The notes below the pieces were generated by a model. The model saw only the letters and a list, made by a program, of their open reading frames with translations, was not told the DNA's origin and made no database searches. From NCBI RefSeq assembly GCF_010122465.1, contig NZ_WLZY01000001.1, positions 744,001 through 808,000 of the forward strand: a stretch of DNA of 64,000 bases, read 5' to 3'. The first letter of the stretch is position 1. Every line of letters begins with the position of its first letter. A program made the position numbers and the translations under genes. The stretch comes from Phytoactinopolyspora mesophila (GTDB lineage Bacteria; Actinomycetota; Actinomycetes; Jiangellales; Jiangellaceae). Positions 34,541-46,175 of the stretch are shown here, one piece after another.

Positions 34541-36508
34541 CTATACGCGCGGGTTCTTGGTCCGGTGCTGCACCAACGCGATACCGAGCAGAACCACCAG
34601 GGCTGGAATCGCCGCGGTCCACTCCGGCACCACCAGGGCGATACCAGCGGCCACGAGGAGTATGCGTTCCAGTCGACTCGCCGAGCGCAGCAGGTAGCCG
34701 GTCAGGCCGGAACTGACCGCCAGCATCCCGAGCAACGCCGTGACCACCACCGGCAGAACCTCACCGACATTCGTGTCCTGCAACAGCAGGGCCGGTTCCA
34801 GTACGAAGATGAACGGGATGATGAATCCGACGATCGCGATCCGCAAGGCGGTAACGCCGGACTTCAGCGGATTCGCGCCGGCGATCCCCGAACCGGCGTA
34901 GGCGGCCAGGCAGACCGGCGGGGTGATGTCGGCGAGGATACCGAAGTAGAACACGAAGAGGTGCGCGGCGATGATCGGCACGTCGAACTCGCTGAGCAGG
35001 ATCGGCGCCGCGATGGTGGCGGTCACCACGTAGTTCGCGGTGGTCGGCAGCCCCATGCCCAGGATCAGGCAGGCCAGCATGGTGAAGATCAGCACCAGCG
35101 GGAAGTGGCCGAACGCCAGATCCAGGATGCCACCGGCCAGCTTGCCACCCAGACCCGTCGCGGTGACGGTTCCCGCGACGATGCCCGCGGTGGCGCAGGC
35201 CGCGATCACTGGCAACGCGACCCGGGCGCCCGCCTCCAGCAGCCGCACGATACCCAATGGCGAGAGCCGGGTGGACGGACGCAGGAAACTCAGCGCGAAC
35301 GCGGTGGCGATGCCGAAGAGCGCGGCGTTGGCCGGAGTGCGCCCGCTCAGCAGCAACCCGACGATGACGACGAGTGGCAGCAACAGATCGACTCGGACGG
35401 CCAGGCTGCGCAACGACGGCAGCTCACTCTTGTCTACGCCGACGATGCCCTGCCGCTTCGCCTCGAAATGGATGCCCATGAACAGCCCGGTGAAGTACAG
35501 CAGGGCCGGCACGAGCGCCAGCACGATGATCTCGTTGTACGGGACACCGGTGTACTCGGCCATGATGAACGCCGCGGCACCCATGACCGGCGGCATCAAC
35601 TGCCCACCGGTGGACGCCGACGCCTCGGTGGCGGCGGCGAACGACGGCTTGAACCCCGCACGTTTCATCATCGGGATCGTGAACGAGCCCGACGCCACCG
35701 TGTTCGCCACCGAGCTACCCGAGACCATCCCCTGCGCGCCGCTGGCGACGACGGCCGCCTTTGCCGGGCCTCCGGAGTAACGTCCGGTGGCCCGGTAGGC
35801 CAGGTCGTTGAAGAACGCGCCGATGTTGGTCTTGACCAGCAGCACGCCGAACAGCAGGAACAGGAAGATGAAAGTCGACGACACCTGGATCGGCGTGCCG
35901 AACACCGACCGGCTCGTGAAGAACGTCTCGGTCGCGTAGGCGTCCCAGCTGTATCCGCCGTGTGAGAAGACCGGCATATGCTTACCGAAGATGCCGAACA
36001 GGATGGCCGCCGAGGCGATCACCACGATCGGCAATCCGACACAACGCCGGGTTCCCTCCAGGATGAGCAGAATCCCCACCACCGCCACGATGTGGTCGGT
36101 GTCGGTGAACCCGAGTATTCGCACCTCGGTGCCGGTCAGCCGGGTGTAGTTCACGACGATGTAGAGGTTCGCCGCGAGCGCCGCAGCGGCCAGGATGGCG
36201 TCATACCACTGAATGCCACGGCGGTGCCCCAGGTTGGGGTGGGCGGGATACAGCAGGAACACCAGACCCATCGCGGCTCCGACGTGGATGGCGCCCTGCA
36301 CCAAAGTCGGCCGGGCGCCGTACAGCGCGGTGTAGAGCTGGAACAGGGTCAGGGCGATGGCCAGCGGACCGACCACCCATTTCCACGGGCCCAGATCGGT
36401 GCGATACCGGCTGGCCGTGTCATGTTGACGCAGCACTTCCCGCGTCTGCTCGTCAACGGCATGCGGGTCCGCCGTCGTCTCCGCGGTCGTGGCTTGTTCG
36501 CTCACCAT
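34541..36508 (-). CDS. TRAP transporter fused permease (TAXI type)
   Basis: 655 aa with about 16 hydrophobic helices. The N-terminal 180 residues correspond to the small DctQ-like subunit and the rest to the large DctM-like subunit, fused as in TAXI-TRAP systems. Conserved stretches include SGSSVANTVASGSFTIP and TGGQLMPPVMGAAAFIMAE. It uses an ion gradient to import organic acids, amino acids or similar solutes captured by a TAXI receptor. The receptor gene is immediately upstream (25 bp). Confidence 0.95.
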   Translation of the reverse strand: MVSEQATTAETTADPHAVDEQTREVLRQHDTASRYRTDLGPWKWVVGPLAIALTLFQLYTALYGARPTLVQGAIHVGAAMGLVFLLYPAHPNLGHRRGIQWYDAILAAAALAANLYIVVNYTRLTGTEVRILGFTDTDHIVAVVGILLILEGTRRCVGLPIVVIASAAILFGIFGKHMPVFSHGGYSWDAYATETFFTSRSVFGTPIQVSSTFIFLFLLFGVLLVKTNIGAFFNDLAYRATGRYSGGPAKAAVVASGAQGMVSGSSVANTVASGSFTIPMMKRAGFKPSFAAATEASASTGGQLMPPVMGAAAFIMAEYTGVPYNEIIVLALVPALLYFTGLFMGIHFEAKRQGIVGVDKSELPSLRSLAVRVDLLLPLVVIVGLLLSGRTPANAALFGIATAFALSFLRPSTRLSPLGIVRLLEAGARVALPVIAACATAGIVAGTVTATGLGGKLAGGILDLAFGHFPLVLIFTMLACLILGMGLPTTANYVVTATIAAPILLSEFDVPIIAAHLFVFYFGILADITPPVCLAAYAGSGIAGANPLKSGVTALRIAIVGFIIPFIFVLEPALLLQDTNVGEVLPVVVTALLGMLAVSSGLTGYLLRSASRLERILLVAAGIALVVPEWTAAIPALVVLLGIALVQHRTKNPRV

Positions 36509-36533: not shown

Positions 36534-37604
36534 TTACAAGAGGCCTTGTTCCTCGAAGTACTGCTGCGCACCCGGGTGCAGCTGCAGGCTTCCCTGGCCG
36601 AGCAGCGCGTCCTCCAGGTTGATCAGATCACCCTGGGCCAGCGAGATGTCCCCGGCGTGCTCGTAGATCACCCGGGTGATCTCGTAACCCAGCTCCGGGC
36701 TGACCTGCGTCGTTGATGCCGCGACTCCCGCGAAGACCGACACGGTGGTGACGTCGTCGTCGATGAACGAGTAGGTGCCACCCTCGATCGTGTACGGCTC
36801 GAAGTCGCTGTCGGCCGCAATCGCGTCGGCAACGGCTTCATCCATCGAGAGCAGCTTGACGTCGTGTGTCGCCGCCAGCTCGTCCAGCGACCCGGCAGGC
36901 ACGCCGAGAATCTCGATCGACGCGTCGAGGTTGCCGTCCTGCAGCCGCGAACGGGCGTCGCCGAAGCTCTCCTCGAAAGCCTCGTAGTCGCCGTCCTCGA
37001 TGCCGTGGGCGCTCAGGATGGCCTGTGCCACCGCACGCGTACCGCTACCTGGAGGACCGACGGAGATGCGCTGACCGGCCAGATCCTCGATCGAGTCGTA
37101 GCCGCCGGACTCGAGCGTGATCACCTGAGCGGCTTCCGGATAGAGCTGGCCGAGCCACCCGATGTTGTCCAGCGGCAGGCCTTCGAACTCCCCATCGCCG
37201 TTGACCGCCTCGATCGCGGTGTTGTTCTGTGTCAGGCCGATCTGCATCTCGCCCTGGAAGATCCGGCCCAGGTTGTCCACCGACGCGCCGGTCTCGATCG
37301 CGTTGACGGACACGTCGTCGATGTGTGCCTCGAACAGGTTGGCGTACTCGGTGCCGAGCGGGAAGTACACGCCTGCCGTGCCGCCGGTGCCGAAGGTGAG
37401 GCTGTTGGTGAAGTCGCCGTCGTCAGGCGCGCCATCGTCATCGTCACCGTCGTCGGCGTCACCGCCGTCGTCCTGTGTGGAGGTGTCCGCACCACCGTCG
37501 TCACCTCCGTCGCCGTTGCCGGAGTCGTCGCCCCCGCATGCGGCCAGGCCGAGCGCGAGGACGCCGGTCAGCGCCAGCACCTTGGCGCCATGTGTGATTC
37601 TCAT
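36534..37604 (-). CDS. TAXI-family TRAP solute-binding lipoprotein A
   Basis: 356 aa from the ATG at 37604 with AAAGGGAA upstream. The signal peptide ends in lipobox LAAC, followed by a long Asp/Gly-rich linker (residues 25-60). The TAXI domain starts at SLTFGTGGTAGVYFPLG. Further TAXI marks are GLTQNNTAIEAVNG and VGPPGSGTRAVAQAIL. It delivers solute to the adjacent TRAP permease. The position downstream of the deacylase-like gene suggests the released product is imported. Confidence 0.94.
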   Translation of the reverse strand: MRITHGAKVLALTGVLALGLAACGGDDSGNGDGGDDGGADTSTQDDGGDADDGDDDDGAPDDGDFTNSLTFGTGGTAGVYFPLGTEYANLFEAHIDDVSVNAIETGASVDNLGRIFQGEMQIGLTQNNTAIEAVNGDGEFEGLPLDNIGWLGQLYPEAAQVITLESGGYDSIEDLAGQRISVGPPGSGTRAVAQAILSAHGIEDGDYEAFEESFGDARSRLQDGNLDASIEILGVPAGSLDELAATHDVKLLSMDEAVADAIAADSDFEPYTIEGGTYSFIDDDVTTVSVFAGVAASTTQVSPELGYEITRVIYEHAGDISLAQGDLINLEDALLGQGSLQLHPGAQQYFEEQGLL

Positions 37605-37748
37605 CAGGTTCCCTTTCGTGGGGGTCATCTTGGGATCGGGACGTCTTGGGATGTGGGTTGTCTCTGGGTATGTCTCTGTGGTGACGGCCGTCGTGGTGAC
37701 GGCGTTCGTGGTGGTCGTGATCGGGGCTCCAAGCTGGCGGCACGGAGC

Positions 37749-40445
37749 TCAGGCGCCCTCCACCCGGCTCGTTCCACTGTCGAGCACTCCGGTCCGGCGC
37801 TCGAATCCGTCGATGTCGACGGTGACCGTGGTGCGTCCGTCGGCGAGCGGATTCTGCTCGTCGAGAATCAGCAGGAAGGCCCGTTCCCGGTCCTCACCCG
37901 AGACGACGCCGCGACCGGTAACGCTCGCCCAGCCCGGCGCCGTCTGCAGTTTCCCGAGCGACGCGCTACGGAAGGTGACGTCCTGGTCGTGATCGTTGAC
38001 CAGGAGCTGGCCGACGGTCTCCCCCGCGCGCTCGCGCGCGTTGAACGACACCTGGACCGCGCTCCACTCCTCCGGCACCGGCGGCGGGTCTCCCGGCATC
38101 CGCGGCGCTCGTTCACCGCCGGTGCCGGCACTGATGAACGACCACTCGGTCACCGCGCCGGAACAGCAATGTGACGGCCCGACCGCTCCTCGGCCGCCAT
38201 TCAACTGATCGATGTCGTACGCCGACACCTCGACCTGCCAGCCAGCCGGCTCGGTGTCTCCGTCGGGCCACATCTTGCCCCTGAGCCAATGCCCTTCACG
38301 CCGGAAGAGCACGCGATACCAGGTGTCTTCCTGGACCGGGAACACCATGGCCTTGCTGTCCTGGGTGAAGTAATCCCCACCCTGGTAGCGGCCGATCTGC
38401 AGCTGGTTCGGGGTACCGCTGGCCGATTCGAGCCGTGCGCGTAGGAAGTACGTGTTCTCGTCCCCCGCGTCGCCGGACACGAGCGCCCCCAGGTGAAACA
38501 GCGTCTCGTGGCCATTACCTCGTACCCGGCCGTAGAGTTCCACGTCACCGTCGACATCTCCCACGACGTCCCAGGTGAGTGCCCGCCTGCTCAGCGCCGA
38601 CCCCATGCGCAGACGACGCGGGCCGTCCACGACGGTCCAGTCACCGGTGCGCCACTGTTCGGTCCACCCGGAGGGCGCCTCGCCGATGGTGTCGCCGATG
38701 AAGTCGGTGGAGAACACCTCGCCGTCGGGCTGGTGCTGATCGGCGGGAACCAGCCGGCCGTTCACCGCGACGCGTCCGGCACCGGAGCGGGTGGCCGGCC
38801 GGGTGATCATCGAAGCGCTCCGGCGCAGGGCACGCCCGGCCCGGGCGTTGGTCTGCGTGCCGGCGGTGAGCGCGACAGTGCCGTTGACGATCACGTGCTC
38901 GATGCCTTCGGAGAACTGTCGCGGCTGTTCGAAGGTAGAGCGGTCAATCACCGTGTCCGGGTCGAACACGGTCACGTCGGCGGCCATCCCGGGTGCCAGC
39001 AGGCCGCGGTCCACCATGCCGATCATCGTGGCCGGCAGGTAGGTCATCTTGAAGATCGCTTCTTCGAGGCTGAGCAGACCCTGCTCACGCACGTAATACC
39101 CCAGCACGCGTGGAAACGTGCCGTAAGCACGTGAGTGCGTGGTGGCCGACGTGGTCGTGCCGCCGTCGGAGGCGATAGCCGTCGTCGGATTGAGCAGAAT
39201 GCGGGCGAAGTCCTCGTCGTTTCCGAACGTCCAGATGCAGGATTCGTTGCCCTCCTCCTGCCGGACCCGCATCACCGCCTCGCCCGCACTGACCGGTGAG
39301 TCGTCCCAGCGGTCAGCCGCTACCTGAGCGAGAGTCTGGCCCAGCGAACGGATCCACACGTCCTCGGGCCCCGGCACCCGGCTGTGGAGCAGGTCCTCGA
39401 TCTCCTGCTCGATCCGCGGGCGCAGGCCGGGATCGTCGAACCGCTCGAACATGGCTGCTTCCCCGCCGTCGCGGATCCACTGCGGAATCGTCGCGTTGAT
39501 GCCGGTCTGGCTGCGCAGGTACGGGTAGACGTCGGCGGCGGCGTAGGTACCGCGCGCGTTGGCTTCCTCGAGCAGCCCGACCGTCTGCTCCGATTTCCCC
39601 CAGTTCCCGGGCCCCATCACCTTCATGTGGGTGATGACCGGTGCGATGCCGGCGCCTTCGCCGATGACGACGGTCTCCTCGGTGGCGTCGATGACCTCGT
39701 CGTTCTCGCTGCGGATGTGGTTCGGGAAGTTGGTGCGCCAATGCCGCGCCGCTTCGCTGATCTCGATGACCTGGTCGGTCTGGGCGAAGTACGCCGGGGT
39801 GTAGTACAAACCCGCTGAAACGCCCCAGGCGCCGTTCTCCAGACCGCTGCGGACCCGCTGGCGCATCATCTCGATCTCGTCTTCGGTGGCCCGCCGGTCT
39901 TCGTTGCCGACCACGTTGCTCCACACCGCGTTGAAGCCGATATACACCCCGATGTTGATGCCGAGGCCTTGTTCCCCGATGGACAACCGCTCGGCGATGC
40001 GGACGATCCCGCCGCCGTCGGGATGCAGGATCTCGGTGGTGACCCCTTGGGTGAGCGAGCTTTCGGCCACCGGCAGCGCGGCCAGCGACCCGTGAGAGTG
40101 CACGTCGATGAAGCCGGGACAGACGACCCGGCCGGTGGCGTCGATCTCGTGGTCGGCAGACGCGCCGGACAGATCACCGACAGCGGCGATGTATCCGCCG
40201 GTGATGCCGACGTCGGCGACGAAGCCCTCGGTACCGGAACCGTCGATCACGGTGCCGGAACGCACGATGATGTCGAATCCGGAGCCGCCCCGTCCGGAGC
40301 CACCCTGTCCGGAGCCACGCTGCTCAGCCTCGCCGGAGGCCTGCGCCTGGCTCCCAAGGGTGGCCGTGGCCACGCCGGCCACCGGCAAGCTCAGGAACCG
40401 CCGCCGCCCCAGCTGGAACCGTCGTTCGTTCGTGTCGTCGCTCAT
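37749..40445 (-). CDS. Tat-exported D-aminoacylase-like amidohydrolase with extra C-terminal domains
   Basis: 898 aa from the ATG at 40445 with AGAGGAG upstream. A twin-arginine signal (GRRRFLSLPVAGVA, 13-26) and a Gly/Ser linker (44-56) precede an amidohydrolase barrel at 58-565. DVHSHGS (H116, H118), SAGLYYTP and ASDGGTTT (D427) with HSRAYGTFPRVLGYYVRE are family hallmarks. The loop that usually reads GNCG reads HPDGGG (141-146), so the usual Cys metal ligand is absent. Residues 577-772 form a beta-sandwich-like module shared with the M14 peptidase; 775-898 is a further unknown domain. It probably removes N-acyl groups from D-amino acids or peptides outside the cell. Confidence 0.9.
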   Translation of the reverse strand: MSDDTNERRFQLGRRRFLSLPVAGVATATLGSQAQASGEAEQRGSGQGGSGRGGSGFDIIVRSGTVIDGSGTEGFVADVGITGGYIAAVGDLSGASADHEIDATGRVVCPGFIDVHSHGSLAALPVAESSLTQGVTTEILHPDGGGIVRIAERLSIGEQGLGINIGVYIGFNAVWSNVVGNEDRRATEDEIEMMRQRVRSGLENGAWGVSAGLYYTPAYFAQTDQVIEISEAARHWRTNFPNHIRSENDEVIDATEETVVIGEGAGIAPVITHMKVMGPGNWGKSEQTVGLLEEANARGTYAAADVYPYLRSQTGINATIPQWIRDGGEAAMFERFDDPGLRPRIEQEIEDLLHSRVPGPEDVWIRSLGQTLAQVAADRWDDSPVSAGEAVMRVRQEEGNESCIWTFGNDEDFARILLNPTTAIASDGGTTTSATTHSRAYGTFPRVLGYYVREQGLLSLEEAIFKMTYLPATMIGMVDRGLLAPGMAADVTVFDPDTVIDRSTFEQPRQFSEGIEHVIVNGTVALTAGTQTNARAGRALRRSASMITRPATRSGAGRVAVNGRLVPADQHQPDGEVFSTDFIGDTIGEAPSGWTEQWRTGDWTVVDGPRRLRMGSALSRRALTWDVVGDVDGDVELYGRVRGNGHETLFHLGALVSGDAGDENTYFLRARLESASGTPNQLQIGRYQGGDYFTQDSKAMVFPVQEDTWYRVLFRREGHWLRGKMWPDGDTEPAGWQVEVSAYDIDQLNGGRGAVGPSHCCSGAVTEWSFISAGTGGERAPRMPGDPPPVPEEWSAVQVSFNARERAGETVGQLLVNDHDQDVTFRSASLGKLQTAPGWASVTGRGVVSGEDRERAFLLILDEQNPLADGRTTVTVDIDGFERRTGVLDSGTSRVEGA

Positions 40446-40593
40446 CCCTGCTCCTCTCGGCTCGTTTCGGTGCGGTGCTAGGTAGCGACCTCCTTCGGCG
40501 AATGAGACGTTGCGCCGGTATTCCGGCTCGAGAAAGGGGGTACACCCGGCAGGAGCCGGGCACCTGCGATCCAATCAACGACCTGCCCGGCAC

Positions 40594-40625
40594 GGAATGC
40601 CTCTTGAGGAGCTCTTGAGCATTCC
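40594..40625. terminator. Hairpin between TAXI lipoprotein B and the deacylase-like gene
   Basis: GGAATGC pairs with GCATTCC across an 18-nt loop containing two CTCTTGAG strings. It lies in the 291-bp gap between two same-strand genes, so the sensory genes and the deacylase-transport genes may be separate transcripts. The rest of the gap shows no gene. Confidence 0.45.
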
Positions 40626-40736
40626 GAAGCGCCGAGGCGGCACCGCATCGCCACTTCAATACCGAGAGATGGAGTTTCGCGGGCTTCAGGCGCGGCAATC
40701 CAACCTGGCGGTATCGAAGTCGGCTGAGTAGCGCGG

Positions 40737-41696
40737 TCAGTGCTTGGTGTCGCGGTAGTACTGCGCCGCAGCCTCGTGCAGTTCCACCGGCTCGGTGAAG
40801 ATCGCCCGCCGCCGGTCGAGCAGACCGGCCGCCGGAACGTGCCGGGCGATGCTCAGCCGCTCGTCGAACAGCACTCCCAACGTCTCGTACACGAGCTCGT
40901 CGGGGGTCTCGGAGGAGACCACGAGATAGTTCGGCACAGCCATGGCCGGCACACTCTCGCGGATGCCGTACATCCCCTTGGGGACGACGGCGTGCCGATA
41001 GACGCCGCCGTGATCGGCGTTGATCTCATCCACCTGTTCCTCGACCGGAAGCAGCCGGATCGACATCTGCGATTCCAGCGAGGACAGCCCCGGCGTCGGC
41101 AGCCCACCCACCCAGATGAAGGCGTCCACCTCACCTGCCAGCAGGGCCTCGATCGATCCGTCGATCCCGAGCGACGCGTTCTCCAGCTCACTGAGATCCA
41201 GGTCGGCCGCCCGGAGGATGCGCTGGGAGATGATCTCTGTCCCGGAGCCGGACGCCCCCAGGGAGACACGGCGCCCCCGCAGGTCAGCGAGCTCTTCGAT
41301 GGCTGAGTCTTCGGGAACGACGACGTGCACGAACTCGTCGTACACCCGCGCTACCGCCCTGATCGGCAGCGGTTCGTCGAACGGCGGGTGACCACCCACC
41401 GCGTCGACCGCGGTGTCACCCTGGGTGAAGCCGAGCAGCGCCTCCCCCGCGGCCACCTGCTCAAGATTCTCGACCGAGCCATTGCTCTCCGCCACCACCA
41501 CGGTGAGATCGAGTTCTTCCGACATCGACGCGGCCAGGTACCGGCCGTAGTTGTAGTAGACACCGGTAGTACCACCTCCGGCGATCACGTGCCGCTCGCT
41601 GCCGGGAGCCTGATCGCCGCCACCGGTGCAAGCGACGACGACCAGCAGCACGACGAGCCCGAGGCCGCTGATGACTCCGCTCCGGCGGCCAGTCAC
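40737..41696 (-). CDS. TAXI-family lipoprotein B, coupled to sensor kinase
   Basis: 319 aa with signal peptide and lipobox VVAC (about residue 23). The TAXI fold is shown by IAGGGTTGVYYNYGRYLA and LGFTQGDTAVDAVGG. The start overlaps the histidine kinase stop by 4 nt. No permease is adjacent to this copy. Its genetic coupling to the kinase, rather than to a transporter, suggests that it presents a ligand to the sensor, as solute-binding proteins do in tricarboxylate (TctC-TctDE-like) systems. This is an inference from position. Confidence 0.92.
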   Translation of the reverse strand: MTGRRSGVISGLGLVVLLVVVACTGGGDQAPGSERHVIAGGGTTGVYYNYGRYLAASMSEELDLTVVVAESNGSVENLEQVAAGEALLGFTQGDTAVDAVGGHPPFDEPLPIRAVARVYDEFVHVVVPEDSAIEELADLRGRRVSLGASGSGTEIISQRILRAADLDLSELENASLGIDGSIEALLAGEVDAFIWVGGLPTPGLSSLESQMSIRLLPVEEQVDEINADHGGVYRHAVVPKGMYGIRESVPAMAVPNYLVVSSETPDELVYETLGVLFDERLSIARHVPAAGLLDRRRAIFTEPVELHEAAAQYYRDTKH

Positions 41697-43072
41697 GACG
41701 CCGTCCCGTCCGCGGGCAGGCGCAGGGTGACCAGCAGTCCGCCGCCGTCACCCGAGGCCACGGCCAGCGTCCCGCCACACGAATTCAGGAACTCGGTGGC
41801 TATCGCCAGGCCCAGCCCGGAACCGGGCGTGTCCTGGCCGGCCGGACTCCGCCAGAATCGCTCGGTCACCAGCGCGAGATCCTCCGGCGCCACACCTGGC
41901 CCGTGGTCGCGTACCGCGATCTCCACCGTGTCGCCGCCGTTGGTCACCGACACATCGACCGAGGCGCCCGGCGGCGAGAACTTGACCGCGTTGTCCAGCA
42001 CCGCGTCGAAAGCGCTCTCGATCACGATCTCGTCGACGAACCCGTGGACCTGGCCCGCGTCGACCAGCGCCAGCTCCACGTCGCGTTGCCGCGAGATCGG
42101 TTCCCACGCCTCCAGCCGGCGCGTGACCAGCGCCACCACGTCCACCGGCGCCGCGTCAGGCTCCGAGTTCTGACCTCTGGCCAGCATCAACAGCGCGTCC
42201 ATGATCCGCGTCATCCGTCTGCCTTCTTCGCGGGCCCGCTCGGCCTCCTCGGCCCACTCGTCGGGAAGTCCCATGGCCAGATGCTCGATCCGGAGCAGCA
42301 GCGCGTTGAGCGGGTTCCGCAGCTCATGGGAGGCGTTGGAGACGAACTCCTGCTGTCGCTGGATGAGGTGTTCGACCTCCTCGGCCATGCTGTTGAAGAC
42401 GGCAATCATGTGCTGGAGCTCCGGCGGGCCGGTGGTGTCGGATATCCGCGCCTCCATGTGCCCGTGCCAGATCTCCTTCATCGCCGAGTCCACCCGCCGG
42501 ACCGGGCGAAGCACCCAGTTGGCCAGCCGCGCGATCAGGAACAGGCTGGCGCCGATGGCCAGCACACCGCCGAGCGCCAGCAGGGCCCACTGGCGCATCA
42601 CATCCCGGGCCAGTGCGTTTGTGTTCGATGACGTGACGACCACACCGATCAGGTCACCGGCGTCGAAGATGGGTTCGGCGAGTACGAGATCGTCGAACTG
42701 CCACGGCAGGACGGTTCGCGGTGCGTCACCGCGGCGCCCCGACAGCGCGGTGTCGACGTTCTGCATCGCGGGCTCGTCCAGGCCCACCATGTTCAGCCCG
42801 CTGGTCGCCCAGATATCGCCGGACCGGTCGAGCACCATCGCCTTGATGCCGTAGACCTGCCGATACCGTTCCAGCTCGCCTTCGATCACGGTCGGATCGT
42901 CCGTGCGCAGCGCCTGCCGCGCGCTCGTCACGAAGTAGCCGGCGTCGCCCAGCCGGTCCACGAACAGTTCCTGCTGGCTCGCGAGCGCGACGCTGCGCCC
43001 GTAGGCGGCACCGAGCACCCCGAACAGAACGATCAGCGGAATGACAAGGACGACGATCAGGCGGACGCGCAC
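41693..43072 (-). CDS. Sensor histidine kinase (HAMP-HisKA)
   Basis: 459 aa. A first helix at about 5-24 and a second near 170-195 enclose an extracellular sensor domain of about 140 residues. HAMP follows, then the H box ASHELRNPLNALLLRIEHL, N box AVLDNAVKFSPPG, and G boxes RDHGPGVAPEDL and GSGLGLAIATEF. This is a TctE-like layout. It lies 7 bp after the response regulator stop and overlaps TAXI lipoprotein B. The signal is probably a small organic solute or amino acid carried by the lipoprotein. Confidence 0.94.
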   Translation of the reverse strand: MRVRLIVVLVIPLIVLFGVLGAAYGRSVALASQQELFVDRLGDAGYFVTSARQALRTDDPTVIEGELERYRQVYGIKAMVLDRSGDIWATSGLNMVGLDEPAMQNVDTALSGRRGDAPRTVLPWQFDDLVLAEPIFDAGDLIGVVVTSSNTNALARDVMRQWALLALGGVLAIGASLFLIARLANWVLRPVRRVDSAMKEIWHGHMEARISDTTGPPELQHMIAVFNSMAEEVEHLIQRQQEFVSNASHELRNPLNALLLRIEHLAMGLPDEWAEEAERAREEGRRMTRIMDALLMLARGQNSEPDAAPVDVVALVTRRLEAWEPISRQRDVELALVDAGQVHGFVDEIVIESAFDAVLDNAVKFSPPGASVDVSVTNGGDTVEIAVRDHGPGVAPEDLALVTERFWRSPAGQDTPGSGLGLAIATEFLNSCGGTLAVASGDGGGLLVTLRLPADGTAS

Positions 43073-43079
43073 GTAGTCC

Positions 43080-43754
43080 CTACCTGCGCGCCAACCGGTA
43101 CCCGACGCCCCGTACCGTCTCGATCACGTCGTGGCTGCCGAGTTTGCGCCGGATAGAGCCCACATGCACCTCGAGGCTGCGGCCGAGACCGCGCCAGTTC
43201 GTCTGCCAGACCTCCCGCAGGATCCGCTCCCGGGGCAACGCCACCCCAGGGTGCCTGGCCAGCAAAGCCACCACGTCGAACTCTTTCTTGGTCAAGGAGA
43301 CGTGGGTGTGCCCAGCACGCACCTCACGAGACGCGAGGTCGATCCGGACCTCGCCGACCCGGATCGCGGAATCGTCCCCGGCGGGGCGGAGTTCCCGCGG
43401 CCGCCCCCGGCGATTGATCGCCTCGATCCTGGCGATCAGTTCGCGTACGTCATACGGCTTGACCAGGTAGTCGTCGGCGCCGACTTCGAGGCCCTGGATC
43501 CGGGCGTTGAGCTGCGAGCGAGCGGTGATCATGACAACGGGAGCGTCCGAGAGACGACGGATCCGCCGGCACAGCTCGAGACCGTCGATGTCGGGCAGCC
43601 CGAGGTCCAGTAGCACCATGTCGGTGTCGGAACCGAGCTGCTCGAGGGCCCCGCGCCCGTCCTTCACCCACACCGTCTCGTACCCGGCCCGGTTCAGCAC
43701 GGCGACGAGCGCACTCGCCACATGAGCATCGTCTTCGACGACGAGCAAACGCAC
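43080..43754 (-). CDS. OmpR-family response regulator
   Basis: 224 aa. Receiver domain with acidic pocket EDD at 7-9, phospho-acceptor D50 in MVLLDLGLPDIDG, and Lys in YLVKPYDVREL. The C-terminal OmpR winged helix starts near 130 and ends in RTV-type signature IETVRGVGYRLARR. First gene of the minus-strand signalling operon. Likely targets are the deacylase, TAXI/TRAP and M14 genes around it (inference from position). Confidence 0.95.
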   Translation of the reverse strand: MRLLVVEDDAHVASALVAVLNRAGYETVWVKDGRGALEQLGSDTDMVLLDLGLPDIDGLELCRRIRRLSDAPVVMITARSQLNARIQGLEVGADDYLVKPYDVRELIARIEAINRRGRPRELRPAGDDSAIRVGEVRIDLASREVRAGHTHVSLTKKEFDVVALLARHPGVALPRERILREVWQTNWRGLGRSLEVHVGSIRRKLGSHDVIETVRGVGYRLARR

Positions 43755-43786
43755 AGCGGACCTCCCCGCGAGAGTCTAAACGACAC

Positions 43787-43841
43787 CCATGATCATGAAC
43801 ACTAAGTGACCATATCGGTCATTTAGTGTTCATGATCATGG
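43787..43841. repeat. Repeat family C, copy 2: 25-bp palindrome
   Basis: The arm at 43787-43811 (CCATGATCATGAACACTAAG, then TGACC) pairs with 43817-43841 with one G-T position, leaving a 5-nt loop ATATC. It is related to the palindrome at 16906-16951. It lies between the M14 peptidase stop and the response regulator start, both minus strand, so a terminator for the peptidase gene is likely. Confidence 0.85.
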
Positions 43842-43859
43842 GATAGGCGGAGCCGTGAC

Positions 43860-46175
43860 CTAGCGCGCGGATGCTGGGTCAGCGCATTCGGCGGGGTCGT
43901 AGAGCGCGGTGCCGTCGACCAGATTGGCTCTGGCGTCGGGGTCGAGGAGCAACGGCACCACGGTCATCATCGGCTGTGCCATCGTCACGAACACCTGGTC
44001 GTCCGTGACCTGCTCGGTCACCAGTCCGAACAGCTCGGCCGGTGTTTCGATCTGCTGCGCCTGAGCCGCACCGATGACGTACCCACAGGGCGGCGGATCA
44101 AGGACGTCCTCGTCGGCCGGCGGGTCGTTGTCCGCCCCGAACAGGAAGAACGGCTCCGACTGGTCAGCGCCGACGGCCTCCTTGTGCAACGGCGCCGCCG
44201 TCACCGCCTCGGCGACGTCATCGATGCGTTCCCGATGGAACCGCAGGACTCCGTGCACGCTGGCCACCTGGGCATCGACCCGGGAAACCGTCGGGTCCTG
44301 GCCACCGGTCTCGGTCAGCATGCCGAGACCATGGCGCAGGCCGATCACGTTGCGGGCGATCGTCTCGTTCTCGTCACCCGGAGCCCCGGGGTTCGGGCCG
44401 TAGAGTCCCACGGTATACCCGGCATCCTCGGTGTCCGGCCACACATAGTCCTCCACCAGCTGCTGGCTCAGTTCGCGGACCGGCTCGTAGACGTTCAGGT
44501 TGCGCGGCCACAGCAACTCCATGTCCGGGTTCCGCCCGGACGGGCGCTCGTGCGCGTCGACGGTGATGTCCGGCGTGAAGTCGCGCAGCACCCGGGCCAT
44601 GGTCTGCCCTTCAGGTGTGTTCACGTGCAGGTGGTCGCGGTTGGTGTCGATACCGGCGGCGTTCTGCCTGGTGTTCGCCACCCGCCCGTCGGGGTTCGCG
44701 GTGGGAATGAACAGCACCGTTGTCTCAGCCAACTGGTCGACCAGGGCATCGTCGTCGGTGAGGGCCAGCTCACGCAGAAGTTGCAGCGTCATCTCGCGGG
44801 GTGCGGGTTCATTTCCGTGTTGCGAGCCCAGGACCAGGACGCTGCGTCCGGCGGCGATCTCGTCGTCCGCCGGCGGTGCCGGGTAACCCAGCCGCACCAG
44901 ATGCACGGGCCGTCCCTCAACCGACTCGCCAACCTGCGTGAAGCTCATCCGCTCCGACGCTGCGTCCACGGCTTGAAGGAACTCGAGCTCTTCCGCCTCA
45001 GTAGTCCAGAAGCTGCCGCCGCGTTCTTCGAATCCGGTGAGCAACGGGTCGGGATCGGGCAGCGGGAACAGATCGGCCGGCGCGCGCGGCGCGCTCTCCC
45101 CACCCGTGCCAACGGAGTACCAGGCCCAGTCGTTGACCGATCCGGCGGTGAAGTGCGCGACGCCGACCCGTCCCGCGTCGAGCCGGTCGTCGGTCGCGGT
45201 GATCAGCCACTCGTCGGGCTCGTCCATCCCGTTCGGCCAGAATTTGACCCGCAACGTGCCGCCGTCACGCTGCAGAACGACCCGATACCAGGCACCCGAG
45301 TCGACGGTGTGGGAAAGATCCACCTCACTGAGCATCGTGAAGGCTCCGTCCACGTACCGGTTGAGTCGCACGCTGCCGGCCCGGCCGTCCAGGTAGTACG
45401 CGCTCTCCGCCCCGGCTTCACCTGACACGTGAATGGGTAGCTGGAACCGGGTCGCGGTGAAGCCATCCGGCATCTGGACAACGGCGCTCACCTCGACGTC
45501 GCCTTCGATCCAGCCGTCGTCGCCGGGTTCGTCCCAGGTCAAAGCGCGTCGGCCGCCGGCGTCGTCCACCTCGTGCCGCAGCCGCGACGGGTCGTCCAGC
45601 ACGGTCCAGTCGCTGTCCCGCCATTGCTGCGACCAGTCCGCCGGAGCCTCCCCCACCACATCGCCGGAGAAGTCCGTGACGTGGGCGCCCGGCGTGTCGT
45701 CGGACACCACCAGGGCGGCTGGCACGACGTCTTCCGCGCGTGGGCGATGCCGATCCGGGTCGGATCCCGGAGTGAACAGGCGCAGCCGGAGATCGTGGTC
45801 CCCGGCCTCCGCGGACTCGGGAAGGACAACCTCAATGGTGTTCTCGCCGCTGACCGCGGCGTCCCGGCCGCTGCCGTCGGCGAACTCCGTCCATTCTCCG
45901 TCCGACGACGTCTCCCGATAGTCCACGACGTACGGCCAGGCCCGAGTCGAGGTGAACACCACTTCGACCGGCTCACCGGGTACGCCGGCCGCCGGTTGTT
46001 CGGTGGTCGGCTCAAGTATCTCGACGCCGGGCTGGCCGGTCCCGGGGTTTCCCTGGGCCGCGACCGGCGCGGTCGCGGCGCCCAGGGGCAGCGCCGCGAC
46101 CATGGCCGAAGCCAACACGAGTGCGCCGATTCGTTTACGGGGTCGTCGTCTGGTTCCGTTTCCCTGTCCGATCAT
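43860..46175 (-). CDS. Secreted M14 zinc carboxypeptidase with extra N-terminal modules
   Basis: 771 aa from the ATG at 46175, behind a strong AGGAGG. A signal peptide with an Arg/Lys-rich N-region (RRRPRKR) ends near residue 41. Residues 50-160 look like an Ig-type domain. Residues 165-364 are a module shared with the deacylase-like protein at 37749-40445. The M14 domain follows from about 410: zinc motif HGNE at 453-456, TANPDGRVANTRQNAAGIDTN with the substrate-binding Arg, HERPSGR carrying the third zinc ligand region, and ETGGQD with the catalytic Glu. It trims C-terminal residues from peptides outside the cell. Confidence 0.92.
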   Translation of the reverse strand: MIGQGNGTRRRPRKRIGALVLASAMVAALPLGAATAPVAAQGNPGTGQPGVEILEPTTEQPAAGVPGEPVEVVFTSTRAWPYVVDYRETSSDGEWTEFADGSGRDAAVSGENTIEVVLPESAEAGDHDLRLRLFTPGSDPDRHRPRAEDVVPAALVVSDDTPGAHVTDFSGDVVGEAPADWSQQWRDSDWTVLDDPSRLRHEVDDAGGRRALTWDEPGDDGWIEGDVEVSAVVQMPDGFTATRFQLPIHVSGEAGAESAYYLDGRAGSVRLNRYVDGAFTMLSEVDLSHTVDSGAWYRVVLQRDGGTLRVKFWPNGMDEPDEWLITATDDRLDAGRVGVAHFTAGSVNDWAWYSVGTGGESAPRAPADLFPLPDPDPLLTGFEERGGSFWTTEAEELEFLQAVDAASERMSFTQVGESVEGRPVHLVRLGYPAPPADDEIAAGRSVLVLGSQHGNEPAPREMTLQLLRELALTDDDALVDQLAETTVLFIPTANPDGRVANTRQNAAGIDTNRDHLHVNTPEGQTMARVLRDFTPDITVDAHERPSGRNPDMELLWPRNLNVYEPVRELSQQLVEDYVWPDTEDAGYTVGLYGPNPGAPGDENETIARNVIGLRHGLGMLTETGGQDPTVSRVDAQVASVHGVLRFHRERIDDVAEAVTAAPLHKEAVGADQSEPFFLFGADNDPPADEDVLDPPPCGYVIGAAQAQQIETPAELFGLVTEQVTDDQVFVTMAQPMMTVVPLLLDPDARANLVDGTALYDPAECADPASAR

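Follow-up and report, generated by a model that had tools for sequence, protein, structure and literature searches.

Why should two unrelated exported hydrolases, encoded a few genes apart, carry the same segment of sequence beside their catalytic domains? The question is raised by a stretch of 64,000 nucleotides from Phytoactinopolyspora mesophila (contig NZ_WLZY01000001.1, positions 744,001 to 808,000; hereafter the window), in which a D-aminoacylase-like amidohydrolase and an M14 zinc carboxypeptidase each contain one copy of a module, called here copies A and B. The segment in common forms a single domain of some 200 residues, predicted from a structural model to be a β-sandwich of the concanavalin A (ConA) or laminin G (LamG) type, without sign of a catalytic role. 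Its homology, the fold of one copy, its spread over different enzymes, its add-on nature and the conserved gene order around it are established. We consider it rather probable that the module is a non-catalytic glycan-binding domain, similar to lectins or carbohydrate-binding modules (CBM), which keeps exported enzymes that cleave amides and peptides attached to a substrate-bearing polymer or cell surface, the products being imported by a linked TAXI-TRAP transporter.

Copy A (38100..38723, minus strand; residues 575-782 of 898) lies after the catalytic domain of the amidohydrolase and before a C-terminal tail, and copy B (45084..45686, minus strand; residues 164-364 of 771) lies after the N-terminal region of the M14 protein and ahead of its catalytic domain. 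In blastp both copies share 43% identity (94/220 columns, E 3e-42). The remaining blastp pieces between the two open reading frames (ORFs) have E values of 1.6 or worse, the module being their sole homologous part. The first-pass annotation had proposed, from an alignment by eye, a module common to two unrelated hydrolases, and this single significant segment bears it out. The motifs that it listed, namely F-x-G-D-x2-GEAP-x2-W-x2-QWR-x2-DWTV-x-D-x-P-x-RLR, RRALTWD, SG(D/E)AG, (T/A)WYR, K(M/F)WP(D/N)G and GTGGE-x-APR, are present in both proteins; its bounds (577-772 and 165-364) need a small correction to 575-782 and 164-364, both sets being numbered from the internal ATGs at 40445 and 46175.

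The Smith-Waterman score of copy A against copy B is 393, whereas 1000 shuffles score 38 on average and 80 at most, and these values, together with the blastp E value, rule out a chance similarity. A degenerate DNA pattern for K-x-W-P-x-G-x2-E-P-x2-W has two sites in the 64-kb window, which are copies A and B, and none in 100 shuffles. The codon-aligned DNA identity of both copies is only 56% (324/582 bases) and, therefore, the pair is not a recent duplication. The nearest relative of each copy is its own orthologue in Phytoactinopolyspora limicola (80% and 73% identity). The DNA identity and these closer orthologues also rule out that the two neighbours underwent gene conversion recently.

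The fold was modelled from an alignment called A6, whose 34 rows come from the window (2), P. limicola (5) and viral contigs found by the DNA-pattern scan (27 of the 33 viral rows retained; L140, L129, L108, L105, L099 and L139 were left out). The AlphaFold2 model of copy B (pLDDT 89.7, pTM 0.87) has 15 strands and no helix of four or more residues, and a two-sheet antiparallel sandwich spans the domain, as in the ConA-like lectin/glucanase superfamily. The amidohydrolase copy may be assigned the same fold on the basis of its 43-46% identity. In a structure comparison with VIA-align 2, Z was 8 or higher in 722 of the 1000 chains compared; the best 50 of these 1000 gave Z values of 15-20 over 155-186 residues and include ConA-like lectins, glucanases and CBM66. 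The concanavalin/laminin-G-like sandwich that had been suggested from the sequence is thus supported by the model of copy B and by structural neighbours reaching Z 20.1.

The nearest structure is a part of a mammalian glycosidase, galactocerebrosidase (3zr5, residues 473-668; Z 20.1, 177 residues, root-mean-square deviation [rmsd] 2.4), which is the best structural match in spite of an identity of only 12%; we take this region to be the C-terminal, lectin-type domain of the enzyme. The CBM66 of Bacillus subtilis levanase (4azz/4b1m) follows with Z 18.4 over 157 residues (rmsd 2.4) and is also the top Foldseek match (E 2.5e-8). The module and CBM66 are both β-sandwiches, matching over nearly the whole module, and both are accessory to hydrolases. 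However, they share only 13-14% identity, and CBM66 sits on a glycosidase instead of an M14 peptidase or an amidohydrolase. Glycan-binding tail domains of the mycobacteriophages Douge (8zdp/8zdo) and TM4 have the same fold as well: the central fibre gp20 of Douge (residues 693-878) gives Z 17.9 over 173 residues (rmsd 2.8), the receptor-binding domain of TM4 gp23 (9n6a) Z 16.7 over 176 residues (rmsd 2.9), and a further Douge chain (8zdo_a, matched at 118-311) Z 16.3. These are virion proteins with 12-15% identity to the module. The next neighbours, with Z of about 15-16, are GH43 proteins, ERGIC-53, glucanases and legume lectins. In a library of viral structures, uncharacterised podovirus proteins came first, and behind them ranked a minor tail protein of a Streptomyces phage and a tail-spike-like protein of a Gordonia phage.

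The first-pass annotation had left room for the segment being an already well-described domain. This is true of the fold; it is not true of the family, since Pfam and NCBIfam scans of both proteins recognised the catalytic domains but gave no match to the module. The Pfam families Laminin_G_3, Laminin_G_2 and 3keto-disac_hyd belong to the same fold class. When 13 close copies were scanned singly, Laminin_G_3 (PF13385) appeared in 2/13 (best E 0.016), and in A6 it appeared in 1/34 rows (E 0.031); no copy reached the curated cut-off of any of the three families, the E values (0.016-0.086) being chance-like. Residues 61-181 of copy B match positions 892-1014 of phrog_24476 (E 2.1e-7), a phage family of 1066 positions called "phosphodiesterase", which is matched in its C-terminal part by 32 of the 34 A6 rows. 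The module is not separately defined in this family, whose name seems to derive from a different part of the protein. The 34-row profile finds levanase CBM66 weakly by sequence (E 0.022), and narrower queries did not find it; with neurexin it gives E 3.5e-4, although no single stretch passes alone.

Other sequence searches yielded little. In the PDB, one copy alone had no matches and the other a best E of 0.2. Among genome contigs, the two-row alignment gave 135 pattern matches, none of them confirmed, and a second scan 110, of which four were confirmed, all in P. limicola. In viral contigs, an alignment called A4 gave 44 pattern matches, none confirmed, and the copy from genome G402 (see below) a single unconfirmed one; a tblastn search of phages gave seven records, all with E 0.01 or worse. 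Among the matches listed by a literature search, whose scope excluded most subscription papers, neither the module nor lectin domains on M14 or D-aminoacylase proteins were found. A lectin-like domain on the secreted peptidase Cwp84, described in the part of the source considered here (PMC4089489), is a precedent for the general idea. The module is, then, an unmodelled family within a very large and well-known superfamily.

What could such a domain bind? By analogy with the nearest structures, with the glycan-binding domains of Douge and with the fructan and xanthan binding of CBM66, we infer that the ligand may be a glycan. Both enzymes may act on the same material, with a division of labour between them. 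Recombinant surface domains of Douge, including the central-fibre tip and a baseplate CBM (residues 116-311), bound mycobacterial glycan fragments, as stated in the portion of that report used here (PMC13033339), and the Douge chain matched at 118-311 is consistent with this CBM. Members of CBM66 bind fructan ends and xanthan, according to the section of the source at hand (PMC11002231). By binding a glycan, the module would keep its carriers attached to a polymer or cell surface, where the M14 exopeptidase and the amidohydrolase would find their substrate. The products would be taken up through the TAXI-TRAP importer encoded between and beside both enzymes, a process that the two-component system of the same cluster would regulate. 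The module itself would have been shuffled among exported amide-cleaving enzymes.

Several points weigh against this glycan-binding role. Domains of ConA-like fold are not necessarily lectins, and the identity to the solved chains listed (8-16%) is too low to justify a transfer of ligand. Only copy B is confidently modelled: a two-row AlphaFold2 model with the amidohydrolase copy as query has a pLDDT of 45. Close copies are found in only two of the five Phytoactinopolyspora genomes, so the function is dispensable. Finally, the most conserved residues (K-x-W-P and E-P-x2-W) are kept in phage and enzyme copies alike and are possibly structural. This last point can also be read in favour of a ligand-free structural spacer or an assembly domain, serving to position or oligomerise the enzymes, because the strongest conservation falls in motifs that may determine the fold and are common to the whole set; in addition, the copies adjoin Ig-like, Fn3 and Big_2 repeats. 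We judge such a spacer decidedly unlikely, since the top structural neighbours include ligand binders (CBM66, phage receptor-binding domains and lectins) and binding explains better the presence of the module on unrelated enzymes and phage tail-type proteins.

At present, the module represents an extension of a very common fold, and nothing is overturned by it. The domain family so defined occurs on exported peptidases and amidases, next to their catalytic domains, in regions for which the searched libraries have no entry, and it connects these enzymes with a fold that has glycan-binding relatives on phage tails. A ligand, if found, would show what the Phytoactinopolyspora enzymes feed on and would provide a peptidase-targeting module.

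Which catalytic domains carry the module? The survey proposed by the first-pass annotation was carried out on the close copies of four genomes, proteins of G402, haloarchaea and viruses being outside it, and found them on 12 enzyme proteins: nine M14 peptidases, one of them also with a gamma-glutamyltransferase (GGT), and three amidohydrolases. The window contributes one of each, P. limicola six M14 peptidases and two amidohydrolases, and G444 and G664, two genomes of one genus from another class, one M14 peptidase each. Among the matches to PF00246, those bearing the module are 1/6 in the window genome, 6/11 in P. limicola, 1/17 in G444 and 1/15 in G664. Only three of the amidohydrolase matches listed for 22 genomes of the family (E 1e-20 or better) run through the module; the others stop at or before residue 634 of the 941-residue ORF, and the module is therefore an add-on. 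Wider relatives are present on a PhoD phosphatase and, by eye, on GH16-like, RHS and other exported proteins, as well as on phage tail-type proteins from the viral contigs. In a tree of 21 rows, the three amidohydrolase modules group together (100/100) and fall, with the other enzyme modules, into a group of 15 rows (100/98) apart from the G402, haloarchaeal and viral rows, the root being a midpoint root only. This topology is consistent with a single passage of the module between enzyme types, in either direction.

The M14 homologue of G664 (L090; 1134 aa) is composed of the module, a weak Fn3 domain, the M14 domain and three CW_binding_2 stretches at its end. Its frame is open, and the corresponding module-M14 gene of G444 (L045) has an in-frame stop after the module. 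The G664 protein bears on a further explanation, in which the module would merely retain the enzymes on the wall or capsule of the producer and take no part in substrate choice. The CW_binding_2 stretches indicate that M14 enzymes of this kind do receive wall anchors, and the same module on two very different enzymes would also agree with retention. However, the separate CW_binding_2 repeats would themselves bind the wall in G664 and make a second anchor redundant, and close copies are absent from three of the five Phytoactinopolyspora genomes. Retention alone is thus unlikely in our opinion, though it fares better than the spacer.

P. limicola encodes the most elaborate carrier, an exported protein of 2088 aa (D41; L041:3281-9544, also L178) with three modules, three Big_2 repeats, an M14 domain and a C-terminal GGT. 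Its gene has as neighbours a hydantoinase/oxoprolinase fusion, an M29 aminopeptidase and a BtpA-family gene. Another genome of the genus, G217, encodes a GGT of 1103 aa (L091:2608-5916, minus strand) in which PF01019 is matched in two stretches, the best one at 94-420; two tandem distant modules occupy about residues 500-860 and, by reading, lie just ahead of the small-subunit part. At L176:9609-13874, the gene of the second module-bearing amidohydrolase of P. limicola (D42) adjoins that of an M23 peptidase, likewise with an RRRFLALPVAG leader.

The distribution of the module is patchy. The window genome has two copies and P. limicola HAJB-30 (G174) has 11 on eight proteins, and among the 22 family genomes close copies are restricted to these two. 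A 13-row profile matches 4/22 family genomes at E 1e-3 or better (the window genome, P. limicola, G217 and G019), and with the wider A6 profile every one of the five Phytoactinopolyspora genomes gives a match (E 0.01 or better). Beyond the family, full-length copies (E <1e-25) are present in G444, G664 and G402; the latter has two copies in a repeat protein and is the only one of the 36 genomes of its class with a match. In the class of G444 and G664, at least 4/66 genomes match at E 1e-8. At E 1e-3, at least 17/296 genomes match class-wide (window genome and P. limicola included) and at least 17/396 phylum-wide (window genome, G444 and G402 included), the matches other than the full-length ones named being partial. 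The last three counts and those of the amidohydrolase survey are lower bounds, the candidates scored per genome being 10 in the class scan, 8 in the phylum scan, at most 48 in the class of G444 and G664, and at most 40 in the amidohydrolase survey.

Relatives also exist in archaea and viruses. Haloarchaeal Ig-domain proteins encoded on Haloarcula and Halobellus plasmids match with E 3.7e-26 and 5.3e-29 in a small locus set, and tblastn in the plasmid collection finds haloarchaeal relatives with E 2e-5 to 8e-7. The degenerate DNA pattern occurs in 49 viral contigs, several of them near-duplicates, and 46 of the 49 hold the domain at E 1e-3 or better (L100, L122 and L125 fail); this rate is partly due to construction, because the loci were picked with a pattern taken from the module itself. 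One A6 row matches poly-gamma-glutamate hydrolase (PF05908, phrog_4175); by reading, it is that of a viral contig (L101:9887-10609), where a short frame joins this domain to the module.

The exported D-aminoacylase-like amidohydrolase (37749..40445, minus strand) has 898 aa from an internal ATG, and its ORF extends from a TTG to 40574 (941 residues). It matches Amidohydro_3 (E 1.4e-22) and D-aminoacylase structures (E 1.4e-72), and its RRxFL leader is, by eye, of twin-arginine type. The tail of 116 aa beyond the module (37749..38099, minus strand) is kept in both module-bearing amidohydrolases of P. limicola (65% and 44% identity). D-aminoacylases, which are subtype V amidohydrolases, have a Cys/His/His metal site, an HxH motif and a catalytic Asp, as given in the part of the source considered here (PMC12017989). 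The window amidohydrolase has HSH, two His and SDGG. In an ungapped extension of alignments that end 1-2 residues short, the expected position of the metal-ligand Cys seems to be Asp (HPDG) in each of the three amidohydrolases that bear the module. The two P. limicola proteins (D42 and D43a) would thus have HPDG at that position, like the window enzyme, and retain HSH, both His and SDGG.

The exported M14 zinc carboxypeptidase (43860..46175, minus strand) has 771 aa from an internal ATG, in an ORF that extends from a GTG to 46232, with a leader that appears by eye to be of Sec type. It belongs to the M14 carboxypeptidases according to Pfam (Peptidase_M14, E 8.6e-19) and to the motifs HGNE, DTNRD, VDAHE and LTETGG, present in this order, which we take to be the HxxE...H zinc site, the N-R pair and the catalytic Glu of the family. 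The leader and N-terminal region (45687..46175, minus strand) match the P. limicola M14 proteins D43b, D40a, D41 and D38 with 40-52% identity.

The genes around both enzymes, all on the minus strand, encode an importer and a two-component system: the TRAP membrane component DctM (34541..36508; Pfam DctM E 2e-89; 84% identity to P. limicola), the TAXI substrate-binding lipoprotein 1 (36534..37628; NMT1_3 E 4.4e-67; TAXI structures E 2.2e-38; 86%), the TAXI-like substrate-binding lipoprotein 2 (40737..41696; NMT1_3 E 9.6e-59; TAXI structures E 1.3e-27; 69%), a sensor histidine kinase with HAMP, HisKA and HATPase_c domains (41693..43072; syntenic in P. limicola) and a winged-helix response regulator (43080..43754; Response_reg and Trans_reg_C; 82%). 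The gene order of the whole cluster, both enzymes included, is conserved in P. limicola. Two TAXI proteins, one glutamate-specific and another for glutamate/glutamine, are described in the part of the source that supplied the site residues (PMC11574862); the aligned chain was taken as the glutamate TAXI of V. cholerae (VcGluP). Both window proteins keep V44, Y45, S75, Q93, E125, G156 and G203 of VcGluP and differ from it at S40, H123, D157, Y200 and M201, and Y46 is Phe in one of them and Tyr in the other. This pattern would fit the import of an amino-acid-like or other acid, without being decisive.

Could the polymer be something other than a sugar? The module might recognise a gamma-glutamyl or D-amino-acid polymer that the enzymes scavenge, the resulting glutamate being imported. 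Within the genus, two proteins combine the module family with GGT, namely D41 and the G217 protein, in which two distant copies interrupt the GGT chain; D41 is close to the hydantoinase/oxoprolinase fusion and the M29 aminopeptidase; one phage-contig row, by reading that of L101, matches a poly-gamma-glutamate hydrolase; glutamate TAXI proteins are known, and the window pair keeps seven VcGluP residues. Moreover, within residues 212-315 the amidohydrolase most closely resembles N-acyl-D-glutamate deacylase (E 1.1e-16; D-aminoacylase, 2.3e-14), a local similarity that speaks for a D-glutamate-specific enzyme. However, D-aminoacylase ranks ahead of N-acyl-D-glutamate deacylase over the whole catalytic domain. 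An Arg at one residue is a mark of D-glutamate deacylases in the portion of the source used (PMC12017989), and this position would be Ile in the window enzyme if the alignment is prolonged 4-5 residues ungapped. The five differing TAXI residues, the wider family on PhoD, GH16-like, RHS and phage tail-type proteins, and the fact that the cases are few and were noticed post hoc also argue against this explanation, which we find very improbable. The same small chance is given to its fullest form, in which the module would be the common address of a dispersed exported set (M14, amidohydrolase and GGT) dismantling one gamma-glutamyl/D-amino-acid surface polymer, with glutamate-type products passing to the TAXI-TRAP system.

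With regard to the importer, the amidohydrolase gene is flanked by those of two different TAXI-type proteins, and there is one TRAP membrane gene. Compared with the P. limicola orthologue of its counterpart, each TAXI protein shows an identity of about 29%. The gene of TAXI protein 2 is directly beside that of the kinase, and this protein might serve for sensing rather than uptake.

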